A stretch of 41,082 bases of DNA from an uncultured Bacteroidota bacterium (GTDB lineage Bacteria; Bacteroidota; Bacteroidia; Chitinophagales; Saprospiraceae). The notes under the pieces are model-generated. The model was not told the DNA's origin and ran no database searches. It worked only from the letters and a program-made list of their open reading frames with translations. A program made the translations under genes and the position numbers. The DNA is taken from assembly GCA_903836265.1 (NCBI GenBank), contig CAILQK010000277.1, positions 1 to 41,082 of the forward strand, in the 5' to 3' direction. Below, piece by piece: positions 5,007-40,658 of the stretch. Positions within the stretch are counted from its first letter, which is position 1, and every line of letters begins with the position of its first letter.

Positions 5007-5032
5007 CCGAATTCATTCGCAGTCAGAAGTGT

Positions 5033-5068: not shown

Positions 5069-5096
5069 GCCAGGGGCTGTTTATATACCCGAAACT

Positions 5097-13088: not shown

Positions 13089-13119
13089 AACAAAAAAACC
13101 GGTGATTCGTTTTTTTGTT
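13089..13119. terminator. A/T-rich symmetrical hairpin between pbpC and the nagB-like gene
   Basis: AACAAAAAAAC (13089-13099) is the exact reverse complement of GTTTTTTTGTT (13109-13119), with a nine-base loop. It could terminate pbpC transcription, though the stem is A/T rich. The right arm also provides the possible -33 TTTG (13114-13117) of the next promoter. Confidence 0.4.
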
Positions 13120-13134
13120 TCAATATGCCCGCAA

Positions 13135-13142
13135 TACATTTG
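13135..13142 (+). promoter_or_regulatory. Candidate -7 box for the nagB-like fusion gene
   Basis: TACATTTG is an exact TAnnTTTG match, 32 bases before ATG 13175. The nearest TTTG (13114-13117) leaves 17 bases, slightly short. Its position argues against starting the protein at the upstream in-frame ATG (13115), since that codon would precede the transcription start. Confidence 0.5.
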
Positions 13143-13174
13143 GCCGGTTATTCAAATCCACACAACAAGATTCC

Positions 13175-17374: not shown

Positions 17375-17382
17375 TATATTTG
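17375..17382 (+). promoter_or_regulatory. Candidate -7 box of the BNR/LamG gene
   Basis: TATATTTG is an exact TAnnTTTG match, 27 bases before ATG 17410. No TTTG is seen at the usual -33 position. Confidence 0.45.
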
Positions 17383-17409
17383 CCCTTCATCATTTTCAAC
17401 CGGCTCAAT

Positions 17410-20400
17410 ATGAGATTGCTCGCCCTGCTCCCCATTTTTCTCGTGCTTCATCTTTCTGCCCAGCAGAAACCTGAATCGGTTCATCTGGGTCCCGATGCCC
17501 CCGAATGGATAAACATGATGGTATCCGATCATCCCAATGTCCTTGAAATTCAGCAGGCGTACAATAACTATTACGAGTCAAACCCCTTCGAAAAAAACAG
17601 CTATACCCAGTTTTACAAACGCTGGATGCAGTGGGCGCGCCCGCTCATGCAGGGCGACGGAACAATTCATGAACCATCGGTGGAGGAAATGAATGCGGAG
17701 GAGAAACAGCGCCTGCTCCTGCGCGCACAGGAGGCTCAGCAGCGTGGAGGGGCAGCAGGCTGGACGTTCGCGGGGCCCAGACAGACGTTCGATACAGACG
17801 GCCAGACAATCGTTACCTGGCAGACGAATATTTACTCCATTGCGGTGGCTCCTTCCAGTCCGAATGTCCTGTACGCAGGGGGCGAAGCAGGCGGCCTCTG
17901 GAAAACTGCCGACAAAGGCATGAACTGGTCGCTGCTCACGGCCGGAATCACGCACGGAGCATTCGGAGCAGTCGCCGTGCACCCCAACGACCCGAATACT
18001 GTTTACGCCGGAACGGGCGGAAAAATCATCAAAAGTACCGACGGCGGTATCACCTGGACGAACGCCTATACAGAAAATAATCTCTGGACAAACGAACTGG
18101 CCATCAAACCCGATCAGCCTGATGTGGTGCTGGTAGCTACCGATCAGGGTTTGATCAGAACAACCAACGGGGGTGCCAGCTGGACGAAAATACACGTGCA
18201 GCAAACCTGGACGGTCAAGTTCAAACCCGGTACACCTTCAACGGTATTCACCGTCAGGAAAAGTGGCTCGGGGTCCGACTTCAGGGTTTCCACAGATGCA
18301 GGTGCCACGTTTGCCAACGCCGGTACAGGCTGGTGGGCACCCGGCGCCGGACAGTCGGTAACCGGGGCAATTATAGCCGTGTGCCCCTCAAGCCCCTCGA
18401 AAGTGTATGCCTACCTGTGCGGTGAAGGTGGAAATCTGGGCGGATATATCGGTGTTTTCAAAAGCGTAAATGACGGCGCCAGCTGGACGAATACCAATCC
18501 GTTCAACAATATCGGACAGCCTTACTCCATTCCCAACCATACCAATCTGATGGATGCCAATGGGGTTGACTGGTTCACACAGGGTTTTTACGACATGGCG
18601 ATTGTTGTGAACCCCAATAACGATAACCAGCTGATTGCCGGAGGTTGCTCCTGGTTTAAAAGCAATAATGGAGGTCAGACGTGGGAACCACTCGGCGGCT
18701 ATGTTGGCGGACTGTCGTGGAGTCATCCGGATATTCAGGCACTGACTGCCATCGGAAACGACCTGTGGATTACCTCGGATGGTGGTATCAACTACTCTCC
18801 CGACTTTGGTGCTTCCATGGACGCCCGCATGAACGGTATTTCCGGCTCCGACAACTGGGGCTTTGATGCCGGCTGGAATGAGGACGTACTGGTGGGTGGC
18901 CGTTATCACAACGGGAATATGGCCTGGCATGAGTCCTTCCCGGAAGGAAAATTTTACCGGATGGGTGGCGCGGAGGCAGCTACCGGGTATGTCAATCCGG
19001 GTGATGCACGAAAGACCTACCACTCTGACATTGGCGGTTACCGTCTGAAGGGCGGATTCAAGGATGGCGTGAGCTATTTTCCGGTTGGGCTGTTCCCCAA
19101 CGAATCTTATGCCTACTACGCCAACTCTGAAATGGTGTGGGATCCGCGCTGCTGGAATATCGTTTATCTCGGAAACGGAAATAAAATATGGAAGAGTAGC
19201 GACGGTGGCACTTCATTCGCTGCCCTCTACACCTTCCCGGGAAACAGCGACAATGCAGTTTATGATATTGAAGTGAGCCGCTCCAATCCGGAAGTTATCT
19301 ATTGCTCACAGTGGGATGGAACCGACGATGCCATGTGGCGCAGTAACAACGGCGGCAAAACATGGACGCAGCTGACCAAGCTCCCGCTGCCCAACAACAA
19401 CGACCGGGTTAAACTGGCACTGAGCGCCGAAAATGAGAATGTCCTCTGGGCATCGGTAAGTTATGGCTCCAATGGCAGGAAAATATATAAAACAACCGAC
19501 GGCGGTGTATCGTGGGTAAATCTGACCACTCCGATTCTGAATAATATACGGATCACAAATATTATGGCCCAGTACGGTACCGATGGTGGTGTTTATCTGG
19601 GTACCAATGCAGGGGTGTTTTACCGGAATAACAGTATGGCAGACTGGCAGCCCTACAGCACGGCCCTCCCGCTTTCTGCGGAAACAAACCGCCTTAAACC
19701 CTTTTATCGCGACGGAAAAATCAGAAACGGCACCTGGGGATTTGGCGTCTGGGAGGCGCCCCTGTTCGAGCCCTCGCAGATCATCGTGCAGCCTATGGCC
19801 AGTGCACTGGAAACAGGTTGCAGCAGGGATACCGTTTATTTCGACGATTATTCGGTACTGAATCATGACGGTGCCACATGGGAATGGTCTTTCAGTCCCG
19901 CGCCCCGGTGGGCGAGCGATGGGCATGCGCGCAACCCCAAAGTGGTTTTCGGCGAGTCCGGTGTTTACACGGCAACGCTGACGGTCAATGGTACCTATTC
20001 CGGTTCCCTGACGATCCGTGTAAACGACGCCTGTCGGGCCGACACCATACCCGGTTCGGCAGTCACGCTCGGCGGCAACAGTTCGGAAGATTATGTGGCA
20101 CTGCCGCCGCTGAACATCAACACCAACACGATCACCGTGACTGCCTGGATCAAACCGGACGGGATTCAGCCGGACTACAGTTCCATCTTCATGCACGATG
20201 GAGCTACTGCGGGCTTCAATTTTCTGCCCGGATCAAACCAGATTGGCTACCACTGGCCCAATGGCGCCTGGTGGTGGAACAGCGGCCTGACGGCTCCCGC
20301 CGGACAGTGGAGCCACGTGGCCATGGTTGCTGACCCCACAGGTATCACGATCTATGTCAATGGGAAAGGGGCCAGGCACAATTTCACTGTTCCTGCGGTC

Positions 20401-21405
20401 AATTTTGACTCGGGCAACCGGCTGGGCAACTACAAGGGCTGGGGCGGTCGCTTTGTCAAGGGTACCATAGACGAAGTATGTGTTTACAATAAATCACTGA
20501 CACAGGCTGAAATCAGAGAACTGATGCACCTGACCAAAGATCCGGCGCAGTTCCCCGAACTGGTCAGCTATTACCAGTTCAACGAACCGGCTGGGCCGGC
20601 ACTCGACAAGGTTGGTATCCGTCATGGATCGCTGGTGGGGCCCACAGTCAAAAGGGAACGCTCCACGGCACCTGCAGGCAAGGGCGTCAGTTCGCGAAGG
20701 AATGTGGTGGCAGGCAAAAAGCGCTATCCATTCGGAGATACGGGTCTCACACTGGAGTTCCCCGCACAGGGCGCCTATCCGAACGGTGAAGTGGTGGTAT
20801 CGCGCCTGAGTGTGATACCTGATACCCTTCCTGATATACCGGCCAGTCAGTTTTCCGATTACTGGATACTGCATAATTTTGGCTCCAGCGGCACTTTCGT
20901 GGCACCTTCCGCAGTGAATTTTGGCCAGACGGGCGGTTTGCCCGCGGATGCAGGCAACAACTGCAAACTCTGGCGCCGCGATGCACTGGCGCACGGTCCC
21001 GTGTGGCAATATCTCGACAACAGCGACGAGGTGACTCCGGGATTGCAATCTGATATAACTTTCAGGGCTGGCAATCAGGTGACCCAATCCGGACAATTCT
21101 GGCTGGAGGTACCGGGCGGCGCCCGTGAAAACAGCATTCAGACGAGGAGCCGGGAAGATCGGGAGGTGTCTCCGGATATCCGTGTGTTTCCCAATCCGGC
21201 GCCGTCTCAGGGCTTGCTGCAGCTTTCGTGCGACAGTCAGGAGCCCTGTGTGTTCCGGCTCTTCAATGAAAAAGGCCAGCAGGTTCGGAAAATGGTGTTC
21301 AGCACTGCCGGAACACTGCCACTGGAGAACATACCTGCGGGTGTTTACGCCTACAGGGTGGAAAACGGACAATTCATGCGACTGGGCAGGCTGGTGGTGG
21401 AGTAG
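17410..21405 (+). CDS. T9SS type A-sorted extracellular protein with BNR/sortilin-like repeats, PKD and LamG domains
   Basis: This 1331-residue secreted protein starts with a signal peptide (MRLLALLPIFLVLHLSAQ). Residues about 120-770 contain many BNR/VPS10-like blades, recognisable by repeats such as KTADKGMNWS, KSTDGGITW, RTTNGGASW, KSNNGGQTW, RSNNGGKTW and KTTDGGVSW, each following a YAG- or LW-type strand. This suggests beta-propellers. A PKD-like stretch (FGESGVYTATLTVNG) is near 855-870, and a LamG/concanavalin domain (ITVTAWIKPDG, IDEVCVYNKSLTQAEIREL) at about 905-1035. The C-terminus (from about 1255, VFPNPAPSQG, ending GRLVVE) is a T9SS type A sorting domain. The natural ligand is unknown; a surface binding or glycan-related role is inference. 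ATG 17410 is chosen because it yields the signal peptide directly. Confidence 0.9.
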   Translation: MRLLALLPIFLVLHLSAQQKPESVHLGPDAPEWINMMVSDHPNVLEIQQAYNNYYESNPFEKNSYTQFYKRWMQWARPLMQGDGTIHEPSVEEMNAEEKQRLLLRAQEAQQRGGAAGWTFAGPRQTFDTDGQTIVTWQTNIYSIAVAPSSPNVLYAGGEAGGLWKTADKGMNWSLLTAGITHGAFGAVAVHPNDPNTVYAGTGGKIIKSTDGGITWTNAYTENNLWTNELAIKPDQPDVVLVATDQGLIRTTNGGASWTKIHVQQTWTVKFKPGTPSTVFTVRKSGSGSDFRVSTDAGATFANAGTGWWAPGAGQSVTGAIIAVCPSSPSKVYAYLCGEGGNLGGYIGVFKSVNDGASWTNTNPFNNIGQPYSIPNHTNLMDANGVDWFTQGFYDMAIVVNPNNDNQLIAGGCSWFKSNNGGQTWEPLGGYVGGLSWSHPDIQALTAIGNDLWITSDGGINYSPDFGASMDARMNGISGSDNWGFDAGWNEDVLVGGRYHNGNMAWHESFPEGKFYRMGGAEAATGYVNPGDARKTYHSDIGGYRLKGGFKDGVSYFPVGLFPNESYAYYANSEMVWDPRCWNIVYLGNGNKIWKSSDGGTSFAALYTFPGNSDNAVYDIEVSRSNPEVIYCSQWDGTDDAMWRSNNGGKTWTQLTKLPLPNNNDRVKLALSAENENVLWASVSYGSNGRKIYKTTDGGVSWVNLTTPILNNIRITNIMAQYGTDGGVYLGTNAGVFYRNNSMADWQPYSTALPLSAETNRLKPFYRDGKIRNGTWGFGVWEAPLFEPSQIIVQPMASALETGCSRDTVYFDDYSVLNHDGATWEWSFSPAPRWASDGHARNPKVVFGESGVYTATLTVNGTYSGSLTIRVNDACRADTIPGSAVTLGGNSSEDYVALPPLNINTNTITVTAWIKPDGIQPDYSSIFMHDGATAGFNFLPGSNQIGYHWPNGAWWWNSGLTAPAGQWSHVAMVADPTGITIYVNGKGARHNFTVPAVNFDSGNRLGNYKGWGGRFVKGTIDEVCVYNKSLTQAEIRELMHLTKDPAQFPELVSYYQFNEPAGPALDKVGIRHGSLVGPTVKRERSTAPAGKGVSSRRNVVAGKKRYPFGDTGLTLEFPAQGAYPNGEVVVSRLSVIPDTLPDIPASQFSDYWILHNFGSSGTFVAPSAVNFGQTGGLPADAGNNCKLWRRDALAHGPVWQYLDNSDEVTPGLQSDITFRAGNQVTQSGQFWLEVPGGARENSIQTRSREDREVSPDIRVFPNPAPSQGLLQLSCDSQEPCVFRLFNEKGQQVRKMVFSTAGTLPLENIPAGVYAYRVENGQFMRLGRLVVE

Positions 21406-29043: not shown

Positions 29044-32000
29044 ATGGTTACAACCTTTACACATCTGAGGAGTCTCCTTGTCCGTTTCGGAATCGTTTCT
29101 GTGCTGTTTTCTGCTTCTTTTCTGACTGCCAGTGCGCAGTGTACGCTCATTTGCAACGATTTGCTGCAAATCGCGCTGGATCAGAACTGTGAGGCCGAAA
29201 TTATGCCCGATGATGTTCTGGAGGGGAATAACTGTCCGAACGGAAATCTGCAGGTACAGGTGAAAATAAACGGCATCTGGACCCCCTCAACGGGCAACTT
29301 CGTGGCAACGGGTGCCAATATCAACCAGACGCTCCAGTACAGGGTGCGCGACCTGATTTCCGGCAACTCCTGTTCGGGAAATCTCACTATCCGGGATAAT
29401 ATAAAGCCGGTTCTTTCCTGTCAGGATGTTTTCCTGAATTGTGCGGTTACTTCCTATACACCTGCCTACCTCGACGGAACACTCGGAATTGCCCAGGCCT
29501 ATCCCGATATTGTTGACAACTGCAGCAACAGCACCCTGTCTTATGTGGACACCTGGGGCCAGGTTGCCTGTGGAGCAACAATCAACGGCCTGTCTGGAAT
29601 GAGTGCCTATATTCTGCGTAAATGGATGGCTGCCGATGCCAGCGGAAATACAGGATCCTGTAACCAGTATCTTTACTTCGAACGCAAAAGACTCTCTGAT
29701 CTTGTGCTGCCGGCCGGTATAACCCTCAGCTGCCAGTCGCCCGACACAGAGCCACAGATCACAGGAGTGCCCCGTATCAGACAGTTCGGTCTCGACTGGC
29801 CTGTCTGGCCTTCCGACGGGTTCTGTGACTTCAGCTCCACCTATACCGATCTGCCTGTTGAAGTCTGCGACGGCTCCACAACAATTGTTCGCACATGGGT
29901 AATTCACGAGTCATGTTTCCCGGCAGGCCCCTCCAATCCGCTCAATCATGTACAGGTTATCAAAGTGGTGGACACCCTGCCTCCGGTGCCGCAGTGCCCC
30001 GAAAATGTGACGGTAAGTACCAATCCGAACGACTGCCACCGCGATTATAACCTTCCCGATTTTATTGTGGCCGATTCCTGTTCCAGGATGTCGTCGCTGA
30101 CGGCCTACTGGACCGACTACAACGGTATTGGCAGGGGATTGAATGGCTCGTTCACCACCTTCCCCGGAAATAATCCGTGGGCGCCCGATACCATGGCCAT
30201 AATCGGCTTTGCCAGCGATCTGCCCGTGGGCGACAACCCGGTCAGGTACATCATGTCCGACGACTGCGGCAATACTTCTGTCTGCGATTTTACCGTTACA
30301 GTTACAGAGGACGTGCCGCCAACAGCTGCCTGCGACGAAAGTACCGTCGTTGCACTGAATGTGGATGACCCTTTCGACTGCTACCTTCCGGGAACGGGCG
30401 GCTGCGATTTCGCAGGTGTCACCTACGTACGCGCCTCCACGTTCGATGACGGCTCCTATGATGAATGTAATGGCATCAAATTCACCATACGCCGCGCCGA
30501 GCCATATTCCGATTGTGTCTTGAGCCTGAATCAGGTGAGCGGTACCCCCGGCTGTTCCGATGGAATACAGGATCCGGTGAGCGAGTTCGAGCGGGCTACT
30601 GCCGAGGGCGACTCCATCAAGTTTTACTGCTGCGAAGTCGGAACAACACAAACCGTCATCCTCCGCGTTTATCAGCTCAACCCGGATGGATCATTTACCC
30701 TCGACTGGAGTGGAGAACCGCTTTTCAACGAGTGCGCCATTCAGGTGAAAGTACAGGATCAGATCAAGCCGACCTGTACGCCTCCGCCAAACTATACTGT
30801 ATCCTGCGAGCAGTTCGATCCGAGTCTGTGGCTGTATGGAAAAGCCGCTATCAGCGATAACTGTACGCTCGACTCCACCAAGGTATATCTCGGACAAAAG
30901 GGCCTCACTCACGCCGCCAGCTACACGAATTTTGACACCCTGTGCAACAAAGGCACAATTGTCAGAACTTTCAGGGCTTTTGATCGCTCGGGCTTCTCCA
31001 GCCAGTGTACCCAGCGTGTTGTGGTGAACTATGAACAGGATTACTTCGTGAAGTTTCCCGACGATAAAATTATCGCCGTATGCGACGGAAGTGGAAACTA
31101 CGGCGAACCCGAATTTTATGGTGAAGATTGCGAACTCCTCGGGGTAACTTATGAGGATCAGGTATTTACTGTAGTGCCGGATGCCTGTTTCATGATTGAA
31201 CGAAACTGGAAAATAATCAACTGGTGTACATACGACCCCAACGGCCAGTGTGTCAGTGTGCCCAATCCCAACCCCAATGCCATTACCAATCATCCCTCCA
31301 ATCTTCCGGGACCGGTCGTTTCTCCCATACAGACCGCTGGCGATCCATGGAAATCAACTGTTGTAAAAGTAAATGCGACGGATCCGGCGCCCACCAACTA
31401 CTCTGTTTTTTACAATCCCAACGCCAACTGCTACTCCTACAAACAGATCATCAAGATCAGCGACGGACAGGCGCCGGTAATACAGTGCGTGACATCGCCT
31501 GATACCATTTGTGATATTTCGGCCAACGATGCCGCCCTGTGGAACCAGATGTACTGGTGGGATAACATACACCAGACTCACGACCTGAGCGACGCTCCCT
31601 CCGATATCTGTATTTCAGCATCGGATGCCTGCAGCGGTGCGGATATAAACATAGAGTACCAGCTCCTGCTCGATCTGGATGGAGACGGAGTTATGGAAAC
31701 CAGAATAAACAGCACGCAGCTGGGCTCACAGCCCGGCGGACTCGGCTGGAACAGTGTACCTTATGGCAATCTGACCGGAACACCGGATATGAGGCAGTTC
31801 GATGGTCGCTCTGTTCCAAACAACCAGAAGTGGGGCTTCGCCATTCAGGAAACCGTAAATGGAAATACAAGGACTGCCTGTGTAAAATTCAATACACAGG
31901 TGGCTCAGGGTGTATATGTCACACCCCAGTTGCCATACGGAAACCACAAAATCAAGTGGATTGTGTCCGACGGATGTGGAAACGAAAGAGTGTGCGAATA

Positions 32001-33585
32001 TGCCATTGCAGTCAGGGATTGCGAGGCGCCCAGCGTAGTTTGCTTTAACGGACTGGCCGTCAATATCATGCCCGCAGGCTCGATAACCATGTTTGTTTCT
32101 GATTTCCTCCAGTTTTCCGATGATAATGCCACACCTGCCGGCCTGATCCGTTATGGCGTGCGCAAATCGGGAACCGGAGCAGGTTTCCCGTTCGATGCAA
32201 ACGGAAATCCGGTATCATCCGTTACTTTCGATTGTAACGACCTGGGTACACAGGGCGTGGAACTGTGGGCAATTGACCTGTATGGCAATGCAGATTTTTG
32301 CGAGACATATATATTGGTGCAGGATAATACAGGCGCATGCAGCGCCGGATCAAAAGCTTCTGTTTCGGGAGCCCTGAAAACCAAAACACAGGATGGGGTA
32401 GAGGGAGCAGAAGTAGTCCTCGACGGGACACCGCCCAACGGACTGCCCTCCCTGAGTGTCTTCGGCCTCACCAACAGTGATGGTATCTACTCATTTTCCA
32501 ACGCCATTCCGCTTGGCTCGGACTATACGATTACACCCTTCCGCGACGACAATCCCCTGAATGGAGTCTCCACCTTTGATATCGTACTCATTTCCAAACA
32601 TATCCTGGGAACACAACCGTTGTCAAGCCCCTATGATATCATTGCTGCTGATGCCAACAAGTCAAACTCTGTCACAACCTTCGATATTGTGGAAATCCGA
32701 AAACTTGTCCTTGGTGTGTATCAGAGCCTTCCCGATAATACTTCCTGGAGGTTTGTGGACAAGTCGCATGTGTTTGTCAATCCGAATGATCCTTTCCTGA
32801 CCAGCTTCCCCGAAAGCCGGACTGTACAGCAGATGCAGACTAATCAGCAGGGCGATGACTTTGTTGGTATCAAGGTGGGAGATGTAAACGGCAATGCGAT
32901 ATCCAGTTCTTTGGCCGGGGCAACGGATGATCGAACAACGGGTACACTGATACTGGATACGGAAGACCGCGTCGTCAGTGCAGGAGAGGTATTTGAAGTG
33001 GCCTTTGGCCCGGCCTCGGAAGTGGCCGGTTATCAGATGACAATCGGTCTGAGCGGACTGGAAGTGGCATCACTGCCTTCAGGTGACCGGGTGAATGCCG
33101 GCAACTTCGGTGTGTTTGATGATGCCGTTACTGTGTCAGTTGGTGAATCTGCGCCCTTCGCACTCCGTTTCAGGGCCCTGAAATCAGGCAAAATCAGTGA
33201 AATGATGCACATATCACACCGTATTACGCGCTCTGAGGCCTATGTGACAGCAGGAGCAGATGTCGTGAACAGGTGGGATGTCGCCCTGCGGTTCAACGAT
33301 ATGACTGGCAGTGTACTGAATACTGCAGGGTTTGAACTGCTGCAGAACGTGCCCAACCCTGTCGGCAACAGCACCGCCATCACGTTCAATTTGCCGGAAG
33401 GAGGCGAGGCATCGGTCGTAATCAGCGATGCCGGCGGACGCGTGCTGAAAACAGTAAACGGTATATGCCCCCGCGGACTGAATACGATCATGCTGAAACG
33501 CAGTGATCTGGAGCCCGGTGTGCTGTTTTATCATCTGACCTCCGGGAAATTTACGGCAACAAGGAAAATGATTGTTGCAGAGTAA
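29044..33585 (+). CDS. T9SS type A-sorted HYR-like surface protein with dockerin-like and cohesin-like modules
   Basis: This 1513-residue exported protein begins with a signal peptide (residues 1-31, ending SAQ). Residues about 35-1090 are Cys-rich beta-sandwich modules resembling HYR domains, marked by repeated D-x-x-x-P-x-x-x-C openings (DTLPPVPQCPENVTV, DNIKPVLSC, DQIKPTC, DGQAPVIQC) and DNC/SDGCGN turns. A carboxypeptidase-regulatory-like module (about 1097-1165) follows. Then come two dockerin-like loops: Asp1168, Asn1170, Asp1179, followed by SKHILG; and Asp1203, Asn1205, Ser1207, Asp1214, followed by RKLVLG. A GDVNG motif is at 1279-1283 and a cohesin-like fold at 1300-1410. The last 84 residues (VPNPVGNSTAITF onward) are a T9SS type A sorting domain. 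A strong terminator follows. The partner of the dockerin is unknown; the neighbours carry cohesins. Confidence 0.88.
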   Translation: MVTTFTHLRSLLVRFGIVSVLFSASFLTASAQCTLICNDLLQIALDQNCEAEIMPDDVLEGNNCPNGNLQVQVKINGIWTPSTGNFVATGANINQTLQYRVRDLISGNSCSGNLTIRDNIKPVLSCQDVFLNCAVTSYTPAYLDGTLGIAQAYPDIVDNCSNSTLSYVDTWGQVACGATINGLSGMSAYILRKWMAADASGNTGSCNQYLYFERKRLSDLVLPAGITLSCQSPDTEPQITGVPRIRQFGLDWPVWPSDGFCDFSSTYTDLPVEVCDGSTTIVRTWVIHESCFPAGPSNPLNHVQVIKVVDTLPPVPQCPENVTVSTNPNDCHRDYNLPDFIVADSCSRMSSLTAYWTDYNGIGRGLNGSFTTFPGNNPWAPDTMAIIGFASDLPVGDNPVRYIMSDDCGNTSVCDFTVTVTEDVPPTAACDESTVVALNVDDPFDCYLPGTGGCDFAGVTYVRASTFDDGSYDECNGIKFTIRRAEPYSDCVLSLNQVSGTPGCSDGIQDPVSEFERATAEGDSIKFYCCEVGTTQTVILRVYQLNPDGSFTLDWSGEPLFNECAIQVKVQDQIKPTCTPPPNYTVSCEQFDPSLWLYGKAAISDNCTLDSTKVYLGQKGLTHAASYTNFDTLCNKGTIVRTFRAFDRSGFSSQCTQRVVVNYEQDYFVKFPDDKIIAVCDGSGNYGEPEFYGEDCELLGVTYEDQVFTVVPDACFMIERNWKIINWCTYDPNGQCVSVPNPNPNAITNHPSNLPGPVVSPIQTAGDPWKSTVVKVNATDPAPTNYSVFYNPNANCYSYKQIIKISDGQAPVIQCVTSPDTICDISANDAALWNQMYWWDNIHQTHDLSDAPSDICISASDACSGADINIEYQLLLDLDGDGVMETRINSTQLGSQPGGLGWNSVPYGNLTGTPDMRQFDGRSVPNNQKWGFAIQETVNGNTRTACVKFNTQVAQGVYVTPQLPYGNHKIKWIVSDGCGNERVCEYAIAVRDCEAPSVVCFNGLAVNIMPAGSITMFVSDFLQFSDDNATPAGLIRYGVRKSGTGAGFPFDANGNPVSSVTFDCNDLGTQGVELWAIDLYGNADFCETYILVQDNTGACSAGSKASVSGALKTKTQDGVEGAEVVLDGTPPNGLPSLSVFGLTNSDGIYSFSNAIPLGSDYTITPFRDDNPLNGVSTFDIVLISKHILGTQPLSSPYDIIAADANKSNSVTTFDIVEIRKLVLGVYQSLPDNTSWRFVDKSHVFVNPNDPFLTSFPESRTVQQMQTNQQGDDFVGIKVGDVNGNAISSSLAGATDDRTTGTLILDTEDRVVSAGEVFEVAFGPASEVAGYQMTIGLSGLEVASLPSGDRVNAGNFGVFDDAVTVSVGESAPFALRFRALKSGKISEMMHISHRITRSEAYVTAGADVVNRWDVALRFNDMTGSVLNTAGFELLQNVPNPVGNSTAITFNLPEGGEASVVISDAGGRVLKTVNGICPRGLNTIMLKRSDLEPGVLFYHLTSGKFTATRKMIVAE
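32545..32715 (+). other. Dockerin-like duplicated Ca-binding loops (protein domain)
   Basis: The two loops are in residues 1168-1224 of the protein starting at 29044. Aligned to the dockerin I loop (D1, N3, D5, D12), loop 1 has Asp, Asn, Leu, Asp and loop 2 has Asp, Asn, Ser, Asp. Each is followed by an [IV]xxxRK/SKx[IV]LG helix. Position 5 of loop 1 is Leu, so its calcium binding may be weakened. Confidence 0.75.
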
Positions 33586-33603
33586 AATCCTCACAATACC
33601 TGT

Positions 33604-33661
33604 GCGAAGCGCGGTGAAAGCAGATCTGAATGATCTTTTTCAGCGCGCTTCGCCGTTTTTT
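33604..33661 (+). terminator. Strong intrinsic terminator after the dockerin-bearing gene
   Basis: GCGAAGCGCG (33604-33613) pairs with CGCGCTTCGC, and the stem continues GTGAAA/TTTCAG-like past one G-G mismatch. An inner five-base stem AGATC/GATCT encloses TGAAT. TTTTTT follows at 33656-33661. This is one of the two clearest terminators in the window, and it separates this gene from the cohesin operon. Confidence 0.85.
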
Positions 33662-33708
33662 GTGCACATAAAATAAAAAAAATTAATACAATGACTGTAA
33701 AAACCATT

Positions 33709-33739
33709 TTTGGCACGATTTTTTAATACTGTATTTTCA
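33709..33739 (+). promoter_or_regulatory. Candidate promoter of the cohesin-SprB-PorP operon
   Basis: TTTG at 33709-33712 and TATTTTCA at 33732-33739 are spaced by exactly 19 bases. The -7 box matches TAnnTT but not the final TG. A leader of about 90 bases precedes ATG 33834. The surrounding sequence is A/T rich, as expected for a promoter region. Confidence 0.4.
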
Positions 33740-33833
33740 CACAAGAGCGTGCAAGATGTGGACCTTTCAGTTCTGTGTTTCCTTTTTTTAATCCATAATC
33801 ACCTGCTTCGGTCAGGCTAAACCAATTGTTTCC

Positions 33834-34658
33834 ATGAACATTCGTATTTGTTCTGTTGCAGTAGCCGTATGGCTGCTCGGCTCATTGAGCCTCAACGCCC
33901 AGGTAGAGTTGTCACTTCCCTACGTGAACAACGCGGCACCGGGTTCTGTCAAGAATCTGCCTGTCAGGGTAGCCAATTTCGACAGTGTTGTTTCCATGCA
34001 GTTCGTTATTCGCTGGAACCCTGCCATCATCAGGTACACCGGAATTGACGGTTTCGGTACACTCCCCAATCTTGGTCTTACCAACTTTAACGCTACCAAA
34101 GCTGTTGACAGCGGTTACGTTCGTCTGCTGTGGGAGGGTCCCAATTCTTTTCCCGGCGTGACACTGCCCGATGGTTCGACTATTTTTCGCCTGAAATACA
34201 GCGTAATCGGGCCTGATACCAGCAGTACACCGGTCAGATTTACAGAAATCACCTACTCGTTTCCTTTTACGGAGTTTGAAATAGTAAAGGTGGTGTCTCC
34301 CGACAGTACCCTGGCTGCTTTTACCGAGCAGGGCTGCAGCCTCGTCAATGGATTTGTTGCTGTGGGCTACACGGTATCTGCCGATGAGCCAAACGATGGT
34401 GAACTGGAAATGCAGGCAGCACCCAATCCGTTTTCCGACAAAACAATCGCTTCTTTTTCACTGGAGCGTACTTCAGATGTGCAGGCAACCATTACCGATC
34501 TTGCCGGTCGGGTTATTCATCGGCAGGAACTTCGCGCACTGAACAGCGGTACACATCAACTGACGTTCGGAAGAGAGATATTCCCTGCCAAAGGGGCGTA
34601 TTTCCTGACCATACAGGCCGGTTCGCAAACAACCGTCCGACCACTTTCATTCCAGTAA
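33834..34658 (+). CDS. Single-cohesin secreted protein with T9SS type A sorting domain
   Basis: This 274-residue protein has a signal peptide (MNIRICSVAVAVWLLGSLSLNAQ) followed by one cohesin-like domain (about 24-175). Shared cohesin features are PVRVANFDSVVSMQFVIRWNP, then LLWEGP, then PDGSTIFRLKY, matching in order the three cohesins of the next gene. The C-terminal part (from about 191, QAAPNPFSDKTIASF) is a T9SS type A domain, so the protein should be exported and anchored at or released from the cell surface. It has almost no other content: a minimal surface cohesin. It lies 45 bases before the scaffold gene on the same strand, with no terminator between. Whether it binds the neighbouring dockerin-like module is inferred, not shown. 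Confidence 0.88.
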   Translation: MNIRICSVAVAVWLLGSLSLNAQVELSLPYVNNAAPGSVKNLPVRVANFDSVVSMQFVIRWNPAIIRYTGIDGFGTLPNLGLTNFNATKAVDSGYVRLLWEGPNSFPGVTLPDGSTIFRLKYSVIGPDTSSTPVRFTEITYSFPFTEFEIVKVVSPDSTLAAFTEQGCSLVNGFVAVGYTVSADEPNDGELEMQAAPNPFSDKTIASFSLERTSDVQATITDLAGRVIHRQELRALNSGTHQLTFGREIFPAKGAYFLTIQAGSQTTVRPLSFQ

Positions 34659-34703
34659 CCGAACATTTTCCTCACTAATTATCCCTCAATTTCATTCATA
34701 GGT

Positions 34704-37700
34704 ATGAAACCCATTATCACGATGCTTTGCGCAGTTTTGATTGCGCTTTCAGGCCAGGTGAGTGGCCAGAATATGAGCACCAGTTTCGTAGTGTCTCCGA
34801 GTTCAGGCCCAGGTCCCTATCCGATTGGTACGCAGGTCAAAATTGACTTCAGAGTGAATAATTTCACCAAAATAGTGTCTGTTCTTTATCCGATAAAGTT
34901 CAACAACACATTACTTCGCTTTGATTCAATTACCAATCCGGTACTGCCGGGTTACACGGATTTGCTCCCGTCGTCCCACCCGACACCCGGTGTTATCAAA
35001 ATCACCTGGTTCCCCAGTCCGCTCGATTTTCCGGATGGATACACTGTTCCGGGTTCCAATGTGACTTTGATGAGTATCTGGTTCACCGTACTCGCCGACG
35101 GGGTTTCTTCGGTGAATATGGCTACCAATATTCCCAACACACCTATTGAGGTCATCAATTCTGCGGGTAACGAGGTGTTCAACAACTCGATCTTCAACAG
35201 CGGAGGAAGCAGCGGCAACGGAGCAAGTGTTACTGGCGGCGCCGGTGCACCACCGCCACCACCGCTCACCGGCTTCAAAATTATCGCCACAGAAGTGTAT
35301 GCAAAACAGGGTAACCGTGTTTGTGTACCCATTTCTGTAAATGATTTTGATAATATCCAGCTGCTGCAATTTGCCATGCACTGGGATCCGACAAAGCTCG
35401 CCTATGAGTGTGTGCGGGGGGCAACAGCGCCGCTTGTACCTACCTTCAACGCTCCTGCAGCTGCACCTGGCACCCTTTTGCTTCAGTGGGAAGATCCGAA
35501 TCTGCTCGCGGGTACTGGTGTAACCAAGGCTGATGGCAGCAGAATATTCGAGGTGTGTTTCAATGCTACTGGTGCTCCCGGTACTGAGTCTGCCATAACG
35601 ATTGACGGTTTCGGCTTCGGCTTCCCGCCCGATTTTACCACGCAGTTTGCCGAAGCGGCCAATGCAGCAGGTAATAATCTTTGGGTGAACGGATCTACCG
35701 GTGTGCCAGCCAGGGTTCTTGTTCAGCCCGACCCGCCAGCTGCCACAGCTGTTACATTTACAGCCGACAAAGATACTGTCGGCCCAAATATGAATACCTG
35801 TATTGATGTGAAGGTGAAAAATTTCTCCAACATCACCGAAGCAGAGTTTGCCATGACTTACGATGCCACGAAGCTCACGTTCGTTACACCGGTCACTATT
35901 CCTGCTACATCACTTAATCTGGCAGCTGCCAACTTTACACACGCGGTTGCTTCAGGCACAGGTACCCTCAAATTCAAATGGGCCAACAATGCAGGCGTAA
36001 CCGTTCCGGATAACACAACTGTCTTCTCGGTATGTTTCACCGCTGTCGGAGCCTCGGGGTCTGTAGTTCCGGTCAACTTTGCCACGACGTCGTGTCCCAA
36101 CCCGACTCCGCTCGCAGTAATGAAAAAAGCTGCCACTATCGCGGGAACTACTTTCGGATTCAACGCCGGCTCTGTTACAATCATTGCCCAGAACGGACCA
36201 CCCACACTGGCCGGAACCTCTCCGATCTGTAACGGTGCAGCAACCGGTGCTGTTGCCAATACAACAAATGGTACTGCTACAGCCTATATATGGTCTAATG
36301 GAGCTTCTACCCAAAACCTCGCTGCGGTTGCTGCTGGTACTTATACTGTCACTGTTACGTATGGATCCAGCGGAACAAGCACCGCCTCCGTTACACTCTC
36401 TGCCCCTCCGGCCATAACCCTGTCTCAGGTTGCCACGCCTGTTTCCTGCTTCGGAGGCAATAATGGCGCTATTGATATCACACCCAATGGCGGAACAGCC
36501 CCTTACGTGTATGCGTGGGCCGGCCCCATGATGTTTTCTCAAAGTACACAGGATGTCTCGGGCCTGAAAACAGGCAATTATGTGGTAACTGTTACAGATG
36601 CCAATCAGTGCCAGTTCACTTCGTCTCCGATCAATGTTGGCCAGCCAACACCAATGAACATCCCGAACAACAATATTGTGATTACATCGCTGAGCTGTTT
36701 TGGAGGAAGTAATGCTGCCGTCACTATCAATCCGACTGGTGGAACATCTCCCTACACTTTCATGTGGTCAAACAACGCCACAACCCAGAACCTGAGCAAC
36801 TTGTCTGCCGGAACATATAATCTGACCATCACCGACTCCCGCTCGTGTACTTATGTGTACCCGAATGGATTCACCATATCCAACCCGCCACAGATGACGG
36901 TGGCTGTCGGCACCAAAACAGATGTGAAGTGTTTCGGATCCGCTACTGGTACTGCCACCATTACTGTCAATGGCGGCACAGGAAATAAAAACTACAGCTG
37001 GCGCAGAGTTTCAGACAACGTGCAGGTGTCACCCGACCAGAATCCGACAAGCCTGCCCGCAGGCACGTTCAATGTAATAGTGACAGATGCCGCCGGTTGT
37101 ACCGCCACACTGCCCACCCCGGTAGTGATTGCAGATGCTCCATCGGCACTCAGCGTTACACATACATCAACACCCGGATTGTGTTTTGGCCAGACTACCG
37201 GCTCCATTGATCTCACGGTAAACGGTGGATGGGGAAGTTATACGTACGACTGGCCAGGCGCACTTCAGGATAATATCCAGGATCAGCCTGCAGTATCCTC
37301 CGGAACGTACGTGGTGACTGTTACCGATAACGGTGGCTGCACCACCACTCGTTCAGTCATGGTAGGAGGCGCACAAACTGCCATTCAGAGTGGCAACCCT
37401 ACTGTCACTCCTGTACAGTGTTTTGGCCAGACGAACGGAAGTATCTGTATCACACCCTCGGGAGGTAACGGAGCTCCCTTCACCGTTGTGTGGAGTGGTA
37501 CCGCCTCCGGATCGGGCAGTTGTCTGCTGAATATTGGCGTGGGCAGCTACACAGCTACCATTACCGATGCACAGAACTGCACAAACACCATCTCTGCTGT
37601 AGCCGTCACAGGCCCCTCCGCCGCCCTGTCATTGAGCCCTCCAGTGCCCCTGATTGCAAATCCTGTTGCTGATCTTGATATAACCGTTTCGGGTGGTACA

Positions 37701-39611
37701 TCCCCATACACCTACACATGGTCCAATGCAGCAACTACTCAGGATCTGACCGGTGTGAGCCCCGGAACTTATGCCGTAACAGTGTTTGATGCCAATGCCT
37801 GCTCCGTATCCGGATCCTATGTCGTACAGTCTCCCAATGTACTCAACGGAGCAACCGCCACAGGCTCTTCCGCCTGCTCGGATGATGGCAAGATAACTGT
37901 TGTCATGCCATCCGCAGCATCTGCATCCGGACCATTCAGTGTAAAATGGTGCAATGGACTGATCTGTGACAGTACAACAACAGCCTATGTGCCGGCTTAT
38001 GATATCACCGGACTGGTTTCCGGCGTTTACAATATTACAGTAACCGCTTCGAATAATAACGTCATTACTCTTGCAGCCCAGGTAGTACAGAGCCCGCCGG
38101 CACAACTTAGCCTCATTACCCTGGTACAGCCTTATGATGATTTCCAAAACGGAAGCATCTCGCTGACCCCTGCCTCAAACTGTACCATCAATTGGGATAA
38201 CGGCTCAACTTCCAGCTTCCGCAATAATCTTGATTCGGGTCTGTACATCGTTACTATCACAAATAATCTCCCCGGAGGCTGTGTTGATACAGTACATATT
38301 CGCCTGTACCGTCAGTATCAGAATTTCATCGCACAGGTCACACAGGAAATTGATCCGAGTTGCGGGGGCCAGAACAACGGCTCAATCAGTATTGCCGTTT
38401 CGGGTGGAGATGGCCCTGACTACACATACCAGTGGAGTGGTCCCAATGGATTCACCAACGCAAGCCAGAATGTTTCCAATCTCGAGCCGGGTAACTATTT
38501 CGTAACGGTATCAGATGCCCGGGACTCCATCAGGGTGCTGGGGCCGATTGTTCTTGCCACACCAACAACAGTAGATATCACAAACGTCAATGAACTTTCC
38601 ATTACACCCGGTGGCACGCAGGTCAGCGGCGCTGAAGATTGTGACGGCGTGGCAAGCCTTGTTTTCACAGGTGGAGTAGGCAACGTGACTATCCTCTGGA
38701 GCAATGACGTAACCACCCCGGTAAACAGTACTCTCTGCGGTGGTGAATACTCGGTAACGGTGACCGACTCACAGGGCTGTACCGACTCCTGGACAGGCGA
38801 ACTTACCGCGCCACCCGCACTGGCACTGACCAGCAATGCAATCAGTCCCAAATGTTTCGGCCTGTCAAATGGCTCCGCCAAAGTCTTTATTTCGGGAGGT
38901 ATCGAACCCTATCAGGTGCTCTGGCCAAATAACCAGTACGATCAGTTCGTGTTTGCTTCCACTTTTTCCCAGGCTATCGGTCTCGATGGAGGAGATTACA
39001 AGGTGACTATCACCGATGCAAACGGTGTACAGAAAATTTTCAATGTGAATGTACCCGAACCACAACCCTTTGCTGTCGAATTTGCATCTGTTGATCCGGA
39101 TGAAGCCGGAGTTTGCGACGGTGAACGTATTATCACGGTAAACGGAGCTACAGCCCCCATATCCTACACATGGGCAAGCAGTCGTTCGCGTCAAAACGGA
39201 ACAGGCGAACGTGCAGCCGATCTCTGCGCCGGTGACATCATCACCTATATTATACAGGATGCCAATGGTTGCTCTCTGACAGTGTACGATACAGTGCCCT
39301 ATCCGCCAGACGCCTGCTTTGATGTGCGCCCGGTACTCACTCCCGGCGAGCAGGACGGGAATAACGACTTCGTTTACATCACCTGCATCGAAGGCACTGA
39401 TCATACCATAGAGATTTACAACCGCTGGGGGCAGCTTGTGTTCCAGACAGATTCATACTCCAACAATGTGGCCGATCCGCTGACTACTTTCACCGGATTC
39501 ACCCGTACAGGTCAGGCGCTCGCCGAAGGAGTATATTATTATGTACTCACAGTGGTTGACTCGTTCGGCGAACGACGTCAGATCAAAGGGCATATCAACC
39601 TCCTGAAATAA
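34704..39611 (+). CDS. Giant surface protein: three cohesins, about 13 SprB-type repeats, T9SS type B sorting domain
   Basis: This 1635-residue protein has a signal peptide (to about residue 22, ending SGQ). Three tandem cohesin-like domains follow at about 25-165, 190-335 and 350-494, joined by a Gly/Ser and PPPPP linker near 170-190. Each shows the order VxxFxxI, then FxxxWD-like, then PDG/ADG-type turn and a [VI]CF strand. Residues about 497-1533 are SprB-type repeats of roughly 80 residues, marked by CFGxxNG and GGTxPYxYxW and ending GxYxVTVTDxxxC. The last 100 residues are a type B (gliding-motility-associated) sorting domain, including IYNRWGQLVFQ and GVYYYVLTV. Type B clients generally need a PorP/SprF-family partner, and one follows 44 bases downstream. 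SprB itself is a gliding adhesin; the function here is inferred. Confidence 0.9.
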   Translation: MKPIITMLCAVLIALSGQVSGQNMSTSFVVSPSSGPGPYPIGTQVKIDFRVNNFTKIVSVLYPIKFNNTLLRFDSITNPVLPGYTDLLPSSHPTPGVIKITWFPSPLDFPDGYTVPGSNVTLMSIWFTVLADGVSSVNMATNIPNTPIEVINSAGNEVFNNSIFNSGGSSGNGASVTGGAGAPPPPPLTGFKIIATEVYAKQGNRVCVPISVNDFDNIQLLQFAMHWDPTKLAYECVRGATAPLVPTFNAPAAAPGTLLLQWEDPNLLAGTGVTKADGSRIFEVCFNATGAPGTESAITIDGFGFGFPPDFTTQFAEAANAAGNNLWVNGSTGVPARVLVQPDPPAATAVTFTADKDTVGPNMNTCIDVKVKNFSNITEAEFAMTYDATKLTFVTPVTIPATSLNLAAANFTHAVASGTGTLKFKWANNAGVTVPDNTTVFSVCFTAVGASGSVVPVNFATTSCPNPTPLAVMKKAATIAGTTFGFNAGSVTIIAQNGPPTLAGTSPICNGAATGAVANTTNGTATAYIWSNGASTQNLAAVAAGTYTVTVTYGSSGTSTASVTLSAPPAITLSQVATPVSCFGGNNGAIDITPNGGTAPYVYAWAGPMMFSQSTQDVSGLKTGNYVVTVTDANQCQFTSSPINVGQPTPMNIPNNNIVITSLSCFGGSNAAVTINPTGGTSPYTFMWSNNATTQNLSNLSAGTYNLTITDSRSCTYVYPNGFTISNPPQMTVAVGTKTDVKCFGSATGTATITVNGGTGNKNYSWRRVSDNVQVSPDQNPTSLPAGTFNVIVTDAAGCTATLPTPVVIADAPSALSVTHTSTPGLCFGQTTGSIDLTVNGGWGSYTYDWPGALQDNIQDQPAVSSGTYVVTVTDNGGCTTTRSVMVGGAQTAIQSGNPTVTPVQCFGQTNGSICITPSGGNGAPFTVVWSGTASGSGSCLLNIGVGSYTATITDAQNCTNTISAVAVTGPSAALSLSPPVPLIANPVADLDITVSGGTSPYTYTWSNAATTQDLTGVSPGTYAVTVFDANACSVSGSYVVQSPNVLNGATATGSSACSDDGKITVVMPSAASASGPFSVKWCNGLICDSTTTAYVPAYDITGLVSGVYNITVTASNNNVITLAAQVVQSPPAQLSLITLVQPYDDFQNGSISLTPASNCTINWDNGSTSSFRNNLDSGLYIVTITNNLPGGCVDTVHIRLYRQYQNFIAQVTQEIDPSCGGQNNGSISIAVSGGDGPDYTYQWSGPNGFTNASQNVSNLEPGNYFVTVSDARDSIRVLGPIVLATPTTVDITNVNELSITPGGTQVSGAEDCDGVASLVFTGGVGNVTILWSNDVTTPVNSTLCGGEYSVTVTDSQGCTDSWTGELTAPPALALTSNAISPKCFGLSNGSAKVFISGGIEPYQVLWPNNQYDQFVFASTFSQAIGLDGGDYKVTITDANGVQKIFNVNVPEPQPFAVEFASVDPDEAGVCDGERIITVNGATAPISYTWASSRSRQNGTGERAADLCAGDIITYIIQDANGCSLTVYDTVPYPPDACFDVRPVLTPGEQDGNNDFVYITCIEGTDHTIEIYNRWGQLVFQTDSYSNNVADPLTTFTGFTRTGQALAEGVYYYVLTVVDSFGERRQIKGHINLLK
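36185..39300 (+). repeat. About 13 tandem SprB-type protein repeats, period near 80 residues
   Basis: Within the 34704 gene, conserved cysteines of the xCFG/xCNG/xCGG motif fall at residues 509, 582, 665, 743, 827, 906, 1220 and 1384. The steps are close to 80 residues, or multiples of that where units are degenerate. Units 7-9, 11 and 13 have lost the CFG motif but keep the YxVTVxD ending. The DNA copies are diverged, so this is an old protein repeat and not a recent DNA amplification. Confidence 0.85.
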
Positions 39612-39655
39612 TCACTTTCCTCCCATCAGTTGATTGTTAATCGTTTGACAAAACA

Positions 39656-40588
39656 ATGAAAAAATTATTCTCCATACTGACATTCTCTCTCGCAGTGATC
39701 GCTGCGAGAGCTCAGGAACAGGCTGTTTACTCCCAATATCAGGTTTTCCCGATTCTTGTCAATCCGGGTTATACGGGCTTTGAAGAAAAACATCAGGTGC
39801 TTGTCAATGCACACGCATCCTGGCTTGGATTCCCGGGTAGCGCCAAAACCTACACCCTGTTGTATAACGGGCCGATAGGTGACAAACTGGCCCTGGGCGG
39901 CGGCCTCTTCTCCGAGCAGATTGGCGATGTGTCTTCCACAAAGCTGATGCTCAACTACGCCTTCAGATTCAAGCTGCAAAAACTGAATATCGGAATCGGA
40001 CTCTCCACCGAATTCCTGAACCGCTCCATTGATGCATCGCTGCTCAGCAACCTCAACGTGGATCGAAATGATCTGGTACTGGAAGGACTCGTTGACGGAC
40101 AGCAGATATTCGATGCAACACTCGGCGGACATCTCCAGTATGACAACCGGTTTTTTCTTTCGGCTGCCCTGCCCAATGCAATCAGAACCCGACTGGATGA
40201 AGTCCCGGTTGATGGCGGCGGCGGCTCATCAGATGGCCAGCATTACCTCTTTCAGCTCGGATATATCGTTAATGTACCAGCACAGAATTTCAAGGTCGTG
40301 CCATCGCTCACCTTTCGCAAATTCAGAAATACCCCCTCACAGGTTGATATCAATGTACAGGGGCGCTTCATGGAAGACAAGCTGATCGCCGGACTCACTT
40401 TCCGACCAGGAGTGAATGGTGCCGCAGTATGCCTGCTCGGAACTAAAATCAACCAGTATAATGTCTTCTATTCCTATGAACTGTCTTTCTCTGACTTCCA
40501 GCGATATAATGGAGGATCACATGAAATAAGCATTGCCTACAGCCTCGACCGCAAGGTGAAAGCTGCTCCTTCAGATGGCAATCAATAA
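39656..40588 (+). CDS. PorP/SprF-family T9SS outer-membrane protein
   Basis: This 310-residue protein has a signal peptide (MKKLFSILTFSLAVIAARAQ) and then the family opening QAVYSQYQVFPILVNPGYTGF. Alternating beta strands (KLALGGGLFSEQIGDVSS, LNIGIGLSTEFLN, KLIAGLTFRPG) and a C-terminal strand point to a small outer-membrane beta-barrel. PorP/SprF proteins are found next to large type B T9SS substrates and are needed to secrete or retain them; SprF is required for SprB display in Flavobacterium. Here the partner would be the cohesin-SprB protein ending 44 bases upstream. A strong terminator follows 37 bases after the stop, closing the operon. No anomaly is seen. Confidence 0.93.
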   Translation: MKKLFSILTFSLAVIAARAQEQAVYSQYQVFPILVNPGYTGFEEKHQVLVNAHASWLGFPGSAKTYTLLYNGPIGDKLALGGGLFSEQIGDVSSTKLMLNYAFRFKLQKLNIGIGLSTEFLNRSIDASLLSNLNVDRNDLVLEGLVDGQQIFDATLGGHLQYDNRFFLSAALPNAIRTRLDEVPVDGGGGSSDGQHYLFQLGYIVNVPAQNFKVVPSLTFRKFRNTPSQVDINVQGRFMEDKLIAGLTFRPGVNGAAVCLLGTKINQYNVFYSYELSFSDFQRYNGGSHEISIAYSLDRKVKAAPSDGNQ

Positions 40589-40625
40589 AATCTCGAACTG
40601 TCTTTAACAATTGGTTTTTGGGATG

Positions 40626-40658
40626 GCCTCTCTCCTTGATGTAGGAGGGGGGCTTTTT
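40626..40658 (+). terminator. Intrinsic terminator of the cohesin-SprB-PorP operon
   Basis: GCCTCTCTCCT (40626-40636) pairs with AGGAGGGGGGC (40643-40653) over 11 positions with two G-U pairs. The loop is TGATGT and TTTTT follows at once. Confidence 0.88.

Follow-up and report, generated by a model that had tools for sequence, protein, structure and literature searches.

Cohesin-dockerin pairing is known mainly from cellulosomes. The nearest precedent found for its combination with the type IX secretion system (T9SS) is a scaffoldin of the Cloacimonadota, which has a T9SS-type C-terminal sorting domain (CTD) and enzyme partners (PMC8542988). A second point of comparison comes from the anchoring of T9SS cargo: in Porphyromonas gingivalis and Flavobacterium johnsoniae, PorP/SprF-like barrels bind proteins with type B CTDs (PMC9143113), and anchoring through this pairing is reported in other species (PMC9143113, PMC12618676). 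The subject here is a four-gene cohesin-dockerin cluster at positions 29044-40588 of a 41,082-bp stretch of DNA, hereafter the window (contig CAILQK010000277.1 of assembly GCA_903836265.1), from an uncultured member of the Saprospiraceae (Bacteroidota), a family abundant in wastewater plants (PMC9304909). The window is the whole of contig C277 in a metagenome-assembled genome (MAG) of 4.33 Mb in 462 contigs.

The cluster belongs to a conserved cohesin-dockerin system coupled to the T9SS, probably of the Saprospiraceae. Support for it is good at the level of the genes and moderate for the mechanism of assembly. The reading considered best, and held with moderate confidence, is that one of its genes encodes a scaffold displayed by way of the T9SS, which serves as docking site for dockerin-bearing proteins. 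An earlier sequence-only reading had likewise proposed a dedicated surface assembly; its cohesin folds, gene neighborhood, and PorP/SprF partner are supported, but most dockerin proteins turn out to carry a cohesin of a separate class, so that intramolecular pairing and polymerization are live alternatives.

The four-gene cluster

All four genes are on the + strand, and reading frames and strands are as first described. The first (29044-33585, 1513 aa) encodes an HYR/immunoglobulin (Ig)-like protein with an X-like sandwich, a dockerin, a cohesin, and a type A T9SS CTD; 248 bp downstream is a small single-cohesin protein, also with a type A CTD (33834-34658, 274 aa). Gaps of about 45 bp separate this gene from that of the scaffold (34704-39611, 1635 aa), which has three cohesins, SprB repeats, and a CHU_C/type B CTD, and the scaffold gene in turn from one for a PorP/SprF-family outer-membrane barrel (39656-40588, 310 aa; 176.9 bits). 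The module set proposed from the letters alone is thus real: HYR, type A CTD, Cohesin, SprB, CHU_C, and PorP/SprF are all found by Pfam or NCBIfam.

In the scaffold, the cohesins lie at 34782-35153, 35268-35729, and 35745-36191, the second and third each with a cysteine pair that is invariant in 9 of 9 aligned scaffolds. They are followed by a SprB-repeat stalk with approximate limits 36384-39294 (13 repeats by a local hidden Markov model (HMM), 9 stretches by Pfam) and by the CTD at 39333-39596. Pfam scores Cohesin (PF00963) at 46.4 bits, above its cut-off, in two stretches, and SprB at 226.8 bits in nine. For the predicted structures of cohesins 2 and 3, all 45 top VIA rows come from cohesin entries (Z 11.3-16.1), the fold expected for these N-terminal domains. 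The model of the scaffold N-terminus as a whole, from an alignment of 9 rows, is of low confidence (predicted local distance difference test (pLDDT) 66.5, predicted template modeling score (pTM) 0.42), and cohesin 1 is assigned from its sequence: a profile of nine scaffold N-termini finds solved cohesins, and its best match (E 1.1e-10) falls on cohesin 1.

The cohesin of the small protein (33906-34238) scores 21.5 bits in Pfam, just under the cut-off of 24.1, and its closest rows in a sequence-based tree are other single cohesins. Its CTD matches the type A model TIGR04183 (29.5), with PF18962 at 24.5, below 27. The cohesin fold is therefore present by model in scaffold cohesins 2 and 3 and in the domain following the dockerin of the 29044 protein, and by sequence in cohesin 1 and the small protein. 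The four cohesins initially recognized stand, but that post-dockerin domain (32938-33300) is a fifth, which had been missed.

The scaffold CTD scores 56 bits against CHU_C (cut-off 27), but the type B model TIGR04131 reaches 23.6, below its cut-off of 35, and there is a match to the type A model TIGR04183 as well (53.3); the type B assignment, which had been made outright, is thus based on CHU_C and the adjacent porP/sprF gene, about 45 bp downstream. The genome also encodes the T9SS components SprA (2304 bits) and GldK (579 bits).

The dockerin module

Type I dockerins have two F-hand repeats, with calcium ligands at positions 1, 3, 5, 9, and 12. The corresponding module of the 29044 protein begins with the first part of a CarboxypepD_reg-like beta-sandwich (32350-32541; VIA rows, and a Pfam score of 14.4 bits, below the cut-off of 32.3), continues with the dockerin (32542-32715) and a conserved post-dockerin tail (32716-32895), and ends in the same-chain cohesin-fold domain, which was found by VIA and not by Pfam; the type A CTD follows at 33352-33576. 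Elsewhere in this protein, HYR scores 30 bits (cut-off 21.7) and the CTD 32.4 with TIGR04183 (cut-off 23). Dockerin_1 (PF00404) matches weakly, at 15.8 against a cut-off of 22.9, or 22.7 (23 with its neighbors) in the genome search. The dockerin-like loops first noted here hold in part: loop 2 is canonical, and a profile of the dockerin finds the solved cellulosomal dockerins 4uyq and 4uyp (E 3e-4 and 6e-4), but the Pfam score is low and loop 1 is odd at position 5.

An AlphaFold2 model of the module (aa 1103-1431 of the 29044 protein, 329 aa, 73 rows) has a mean pLDDT of 95.2 and a pTM of 0.89. For its predicted post-dockerin domain, 25 of 25 top VIA rows are cohesins (Z 7.2-8.8); these Z values are middling, so the assignment is carried by the uniformity of the top rows. 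Rows for the sandwich span model residues 1-173 and cover strands both before and after the dockerin. The post-dockerin strands thus appear to be part of the same domain, and the dockerin seems either inserted in an Ig-like domain or packed on it, an arrangement that, if the model is right, would recall the X-dockerin dyad.

Within the module, conservation is highest in the dockerin, with a mean entropy of 1.24 bits (tail 1.76, cohesin 2.25, sandwich 2.48). In repeat 2, over 278 modules (weighted), D1 is kept in 100%, N3 in 95%, S5 in 83%, T9 in 82%, and D12 in 100%; R stands at position 17 in 94% and K or R at position 18 in 88%, two positions at which type I dockerins contact the cohesin. 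Repeat 1 keeps D/N1, N/D3, S/T9, and D12, while position 5 is L in 75%. The module alignments included 17 of 18 modules (A1, leaving out the divergent L090:12148-13116) and 72 of 78 named loci (A2, leaving out L102, L120, L124, L130, L131, and L152).

Conservation and co-occurrence in relatives

In relatives the neighborhood is conserved: 23 of 28 scaffold loci have the whole trio of single-cohesin gene, scaffold gene, and porP/sprF, and two more are cut by contig ends. Twenty family loci were chosen by eye as multi-cohesin among the matches listed. Here porP/sprF is directly downstream of the scaffold in 17 of the 18 with this neighbor in view, in agreement with the proposed partnership of a PorP/SprF barrel with a CHU_C scaffold. 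The single-cohesin gene is directly upstream in 17 of 19, a count that is partly selected, since seven loci (G040, G060, G049, G023, G016, G028, and G059) had shown a short cohesin open reading frame (ORF) beforehand. A dockerin gene falls within the fetched stretch in 11 of 20. Where no dockerin neighbor could be foreseen (16 loci, leaving out G043 and G015, with a dockerin already listed nearby, and G001 and G051, with a cohesin in another long ORF nearby), there is one in 7, against 0.8-2.4 expected at assumed densities of 5 and 10 dockerins per Mb.

A named set of 78 module loci is dockerin-centered, so that adjacency of a dockerin gene is there by construction. Eight of these have a scaffold; porP accompanies it in 7 of 7 and a single cohesin in 7 of 8. 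All four genes in the window's order are found in seven (L105, L108, L109, L113, L134, L137, and L151); L133 has a different order, and L096 and L097 have no single-cohesin neighbor. By NCBI ranks, 50 of the 78 are Saprospiraceae and 55 Saprospirales, with no family given for 24 and no order for 18; Lewinella cohaerens (L148) is among them. These ranks point to Saprospiraceae as the probable family of the window genome as well. Across loci, scaffolds have 3-10 cohesins and, in most, 11-13 SprB repeats (local HMMs, with seeds from the window and its own genome and two iterations). Such conservation across loci excludes chance or artefact as the origin of the module set.

At the level of whole genomes, scaffold-type cohesins (E <= 1e-10) are found in 53 of 61 family genomes, every one of which also has a dockerin module; of the eight without them, six have no dockerin module and two a single marginal match (Fisher p 5e-7, ignoring kinship). 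With a threshold of E <= 1e-30, scaffolds are counted in 47 of the 61. Module counts per genome are minimum values, at most 11 candidates having been scored in most genomes.

The dockerin module is present in 183 of 199 family genomes. Among 118 phylum genomes, 21 have any module match at E 0.001, but strong ones (<1e-20) are limited to three family members and G268, that is, to 1 of 115 sampled phylum members outside the family. The module of this one outsider (G268:C13:21341-22243, L222; E 1.2e-41) is a dockerin-cohesin of the same class, and possibly reflects transfer. Two oddities were seen in passing: in L097 (4021-7063) the scaffold is split into two overlapping ORFs, one with three cohesins and the other with SprB repeats and CTD, by a frameshift or assembly error, and a dockerin match in G018 (C29:85340-85483) lies within an open frame of 11,186 aa.

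The co-occurrence over 61 genomes bears on one alternative in particular, namely that the domains with a cohesin fold never bind dockerins and are Ig-like parts with a structural or ligand-binding role, the dockerin units being calcium-stabilized spacers in an otherwise ordinary stalk or adhesin. The cohesin fold does resemble carbohydrate-binding modules (a Cellulomonas fimi cellulose-binding domain is among the structure matches), HYR and SprB repeats are stalk-like, and cohesin- and dockerin-like modules outside cellulosomes were reportedly described by Peer et al. in 2009. Such domains, however, would not explain why scaffolds and dockerins occur together and have adjacent genes, nor why the dockerin is so conserved; and where a protease terminates in a dockerin, as described below, that dockerin is no spacer. 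This explanation is considered improbable.

Dockerin proteins in the window genome

As in cellulosome-bearing bacteria, a scaffold with tandem cohesins and dockerin proteins are encoded by one genome. A scan for further dockerin genes gave 16 module matches, 14 with a dockerin part and two with the cohesin end alone; the 14 dockerin modules compare with two scaffold genes found, one in the window and one on contig C417. All 14 dockerin proteins, 6 of them with N-termini cut by contig ends, were scanned with Pfam, and 8 also against PDB sequences. Thirteen have HYR, Ig-like, or BNR/sortilin propeller domains, or nothing recognized, and no recognized enzyme domain; no glycoside hydrolase or other polysaccharide-degrading domain was recognized in any of the 14 by these searches, and an ordinary cellulosome is rejected on this ground.

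The remaining protein, on contig C262 (L182:106-2031), is a protease: aa 192-451 match Achromobacter protease I and lysyl endopeptidases (PDB 1arb, E 9.7e-38), and the alignment covers what we take to be the stretches around the catalytic His, Asp, and Ser. Pfam gives it just 17.3 bits for Trypsin_2, against a cut-off of 27.6, so other enzymes may have been missed as well; a PDB search of seven further dockerin proteins (E 0.001) left six without a match, the seventh matching only dockerins. The absence of catalytic domains, proposed from the window, thus applies to its four genes but not to the system, in which 1 of 14 dockerin proteins is a lysyl-endopeptidase-like protease.

This protease ends at the dockerin tail of an X-dockerin unit, with neither a cohesin nor a recognized T9SS sorting domain, and an unrelated open frame starts 37 bp further on; its dockerin therefore has no cohesin in cis. 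Among 196 dockerin frames with the 3' end in view, it is the sole one to stop within 130 aa of the dockerin. If the protease is kept at the surface, docking would be the obvious way.

The second cohesin cluster, on C417 (L029 5157-20000), encodes a scaffold with four cohesins set among HYR domains and a type B-like CTD. Downstream are porP/sprF and a PorE-like OmpA/PD40/SPOR gene; upstream is an HYR protein with a cohesin-dockerin-cohesin arrangement. This cluster, the family-wide conservation, and the protease with its terminal dockerin, all outside the window, had escaped the sequence-only reading.

Seven further frames with weak dockerin matches were rescanned (C418, C16, C302, C446, C57, C45, and C207). 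Two are apparently dockerin proteins of another type: one on C418 (L041 9604-12138) with a dockerin (25.6 bits), Ig/cadherin domains, and a T9SS CTD, and one on C16 (L042 8807-11107) with a dockerin (20.6), PKD, a Kazal-type inhibitor domain, and a T9SS CTD. Those on C302, C446, and C57 are chance matches, the frames being TonB receptors; that in a lysyl oxidase-like protein on C45 was not reproduced, and a domain rescan of the C207 frame gave nothing.

Possible pairing within and between chains

A tree of 266 cohesins sets those of scaffolds, small single-cohesin proteins, and post-dockerin domains apart, with 7 label changes in all compared to 101 for shuffled labels; for post-dockerin and scaffold cohesins the figures are 2 and 78. 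The alignment has few columns, and the tree many open forks and long branches. Type I and type II cohesins separate likewise in cellulosomes, and the classes seen here would permit two specificities.

In one alternative arrangement, the dockerin of one HYR protein would bind the post-dockerin cohesin of the next, giving head-to-tail fibers nucleated at the surface by the scaffold or the single-cohesin protein. Dockerin and cohesin are found in one chain, with many paralogues per genome; the cohesins concerned are a class apart from those of the scaffold; and the C417 protein has cohesins on both sides of its dockerin. Nearly all of these proteins, however, carry a type A CTD, by which each could be anchored on its own. 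Such a polymer is considered unlikely, though it is given slightly more weight than any of the other alternatives considered here, which are not mutually exclusive.

The arrangement of the module suggests yet another possibility, that the dockerin packs on the cohesin of its own chain, forming a rigid unit ahead of the T9SS CTD, with the scaffold cohesins serving as spacers or binding something else. By local HMM, 94 of 116 dockerin ORFs have a cohesin immediately after the dockerin, and the region can be aligned in further ones (the rows having been selected by a query that included the cohesin). The pLDDT and pTM of the 329-aa model are presumably above what a loosely attached cohesin would give. 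Coevolution within the module was estimated by mean-field direct coupling analysis (278 unique of 310 sequences with coverage, from 323 matches; effective number 218). Dockerin-cohesin pairs make up 8 of the top 100 couplings and 2 of 44 bootstrap-stable ones, against a random expectation of 16.4%; in the top 100, within-cohesin (29) and within-dockerin (12) pairs are clearly enriched, dockerin-tail (13) and dockerin-sandwich (9) pairs barely. As between-domain couplings are weak everywhere, leaving no strong positive control, this is weak evidence against pairing within the chain: an underpowered analysis gives it no support, while the pTM hints at a fixed arrangement. The cohesin is also much less conserved than the dockerin, and in three proteins of the window genome (L037, L044, and L038) the dockerin is retained while the cohesin is little or not at all recognized by the profile; the C262 protease has none. 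On balance, pairing of this kind is regarded as unlikely, about as much so as the polymer.

For docking onto the scaffold, several of these same observations count on the negative side. Most dockerin proteins own a cohesin and so do not require a partner in trans, and their own sorting domain can hold them at the surface; the pTM of the predicted module suggests fixed packing in cis. The C262 protease has no recognized outer-membrane export signal and, as 1 of 196 frames, may be an oddity. The window dockerin and the single cohesin both score under their Pfam cut-offs, and loop 1 of the dockerin has no acidic residue at position 5. There is no dockerin gene in the fetched stretch at 9 of 20 family loci. 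Finally, in six genomes with a clear dockerin (G003, G004, G013, G019, G026, and G052) the scaffold is matched only more weakly (E 1e-12 to 1e-23), and among matches close to 1e-10 there may be proteins that are not scaffolds.

Proposed assembly and a possible link to gliding

In the assembly favored here, the 34704 scaffold would be exported through the T9SS; on the model of F. johnsoniae and P. gingivalis, its own PorP/SprF protein would then keep it attached to the outer surface. Its cohesins (three here, 3-10 in relatives) would be displayed at the free N-terminal end of the SprB-repeat stalk, where they would bind the dockerins of exported proteins encoded throughout the genome, mostly HYR/Ig-like or beta-propeller proteins, of which the 29044 protein is the neighboring one. 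At least one docked client would be the protease, with a dockerin but no cohesin or recognized sorting domain of its own, and the small single-cohesin protein, with its type A CTD, could offer a second, separately anchored docking site. The outcome would likely be a modular adhesive or matrix-like surface layer. Modules, gene order and its conservation, and the co-occurrence of scaffold and dockerin are observed, and the cohesin folds are seen in predicted structures; binding in trans, surface anchoring, calcium binding, and an adhesive function would follow from these by inference.

The surroundings of such a scaffold bear on whether it might move. In F. johnsoniae, a static type B protein is encoded together with a PorE-like gene, whereas the moving ones that are named lack such a companion (PMC12618676). 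No PorE-like gene was found beside scaffolds of the window type, using a local HMM that was built from one sequence and matched only that one; the window contig stops 494 bp beyond porP. Within this limit, the window scaffold fits the moving pattern, and that of C417, with its PorE-like gene, the static one. Mobile adhesins of the SprB type are driven by the gliding machinery (GldJ). The gliding link was followed for GldJ, SprA, GldK, and PorP; a GldJ-like protein scores 413 bits, with GldJ as best family but below the cut-off of 458.2. Its gene, on C287 (L367), adjoins one for a PorP/SprF-like protein.

As an SprB-class adhesin with no PorE gene in view, the window scaffold would, by the F. 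johnsoniae pattern, ride the gliding track. An extended version of the docking proposal is then conceivable, in which a scaffold carried by gliding serves as a motorized platform, its cohesins holding interchangeable dockerin proteins including the protease; the C417 scaffold would be its static counterpart, and the second cohesin class would chain docked proteins into a matrix. This is speculative, and less probable than any of the alternatives above; if it were true, the cell would both move and swap its surface tools.

Other features of the window

A terminator-like hairpin of 12 pairs follows porP/sprF (40625-40654, + strand), as a consensus match only; 19 such sites occur in the scanned region against 10.7 expected, about twice the number in shuffles of the region. 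An Rfam scan of the window had zero matches at the gathering score. Searched by tblastn against plasmids, the scaffold matched 11 records, all at <60% identity and none covering 80% of the query.

Upstream of the cluster, at 17380-21405, is a surface protein with a sortilin/BNR propeller, a laminin G-like lectin domain, and a weak T9SS CTD. Two fused ORFs were also noted: that at 5031-9470 joins an outer-membrane efflux domain (OEP) to an RND pump (ACR_tran, 917.6 bits), and that at 13115-15115 combines glucosamine-6-phosphate isomerase-like and PIG-L deacetylase-like domains.

Comparison with known systems

If the docking proposal is correct, the plug-and-socket chemistry of cellulosomes is used here to build a bacterial surface, family-wide, with T9SS export and mostly adhesin-like clients. 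Some of the large HYR proteins of these genomes would then have a testable role, protein engineers would gain new cohesin-dockerin pairs, and scaffolding would be linked with adhesins of the SprB/SprF type; the window cohesins and dockerin, and the dockerin of the protease, are small enough for direct tests. None of the titles or abstract openings listed by searches of an open-licence library names this system.

Like the clostridial cellulosome, the system has tandem cohesins on a scaffold with no recognized catalytic domain, many dockerin proteins per genome, and separate cohesin classes; the clostridial X-dockerin, an Ig-like domain joined to a dockerin, can be likened to the module described here. 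Unlike the cellulosome, it has one protease and no recognized polysaccharide-degrading domain among its 14 dockerin proteins, and it shows apparent T9SS export and anchoring, an SprB stalk, and a cohesin and sorting domain on most of the dockerin proteins themselves; in the sample, it is also nearly confined to one family of Bacteroidota. The non-cellulosomal cohesin of Archaeoglobus fulgidus (2xdh, among the structure matches) is another case of this fold outside a cellulosome, but in an archaeon, which is not known to have a T9SS.

The scaffoldin of Ca. Stygibacter (Cloacimonadota), proposed from MAGs, is similar in its tandem cohesins and T9SS-type CTD and in having dockerin proteins that include peptidases (PMC8542988). 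Its named dockerin proteins are, however, mostly enzymes (GH18, GH57, and peptidases, with one halomucin-like protein), and its scaffold has CBM2/CBM3 modules (PMC8542988), whereas here the dockerin proteins are mostly HYR and propeller proteins, and the scaffold, which has SprB repeats, is conserved as one unit together with PorP/SprF and a single-cohesin gene. With SprB and SprF of F. johnsoniae, the window cluster shares SprB repeats, a type B-like CTD, a porP/sprF gene directly downstream, and no PorE gene seen beside it (PMC9143113, PMC12618676); it differs in having cohesins at the free end of the stalk, and in the size of the protein, 1635 aa compared to the 669 kDa of SprB.

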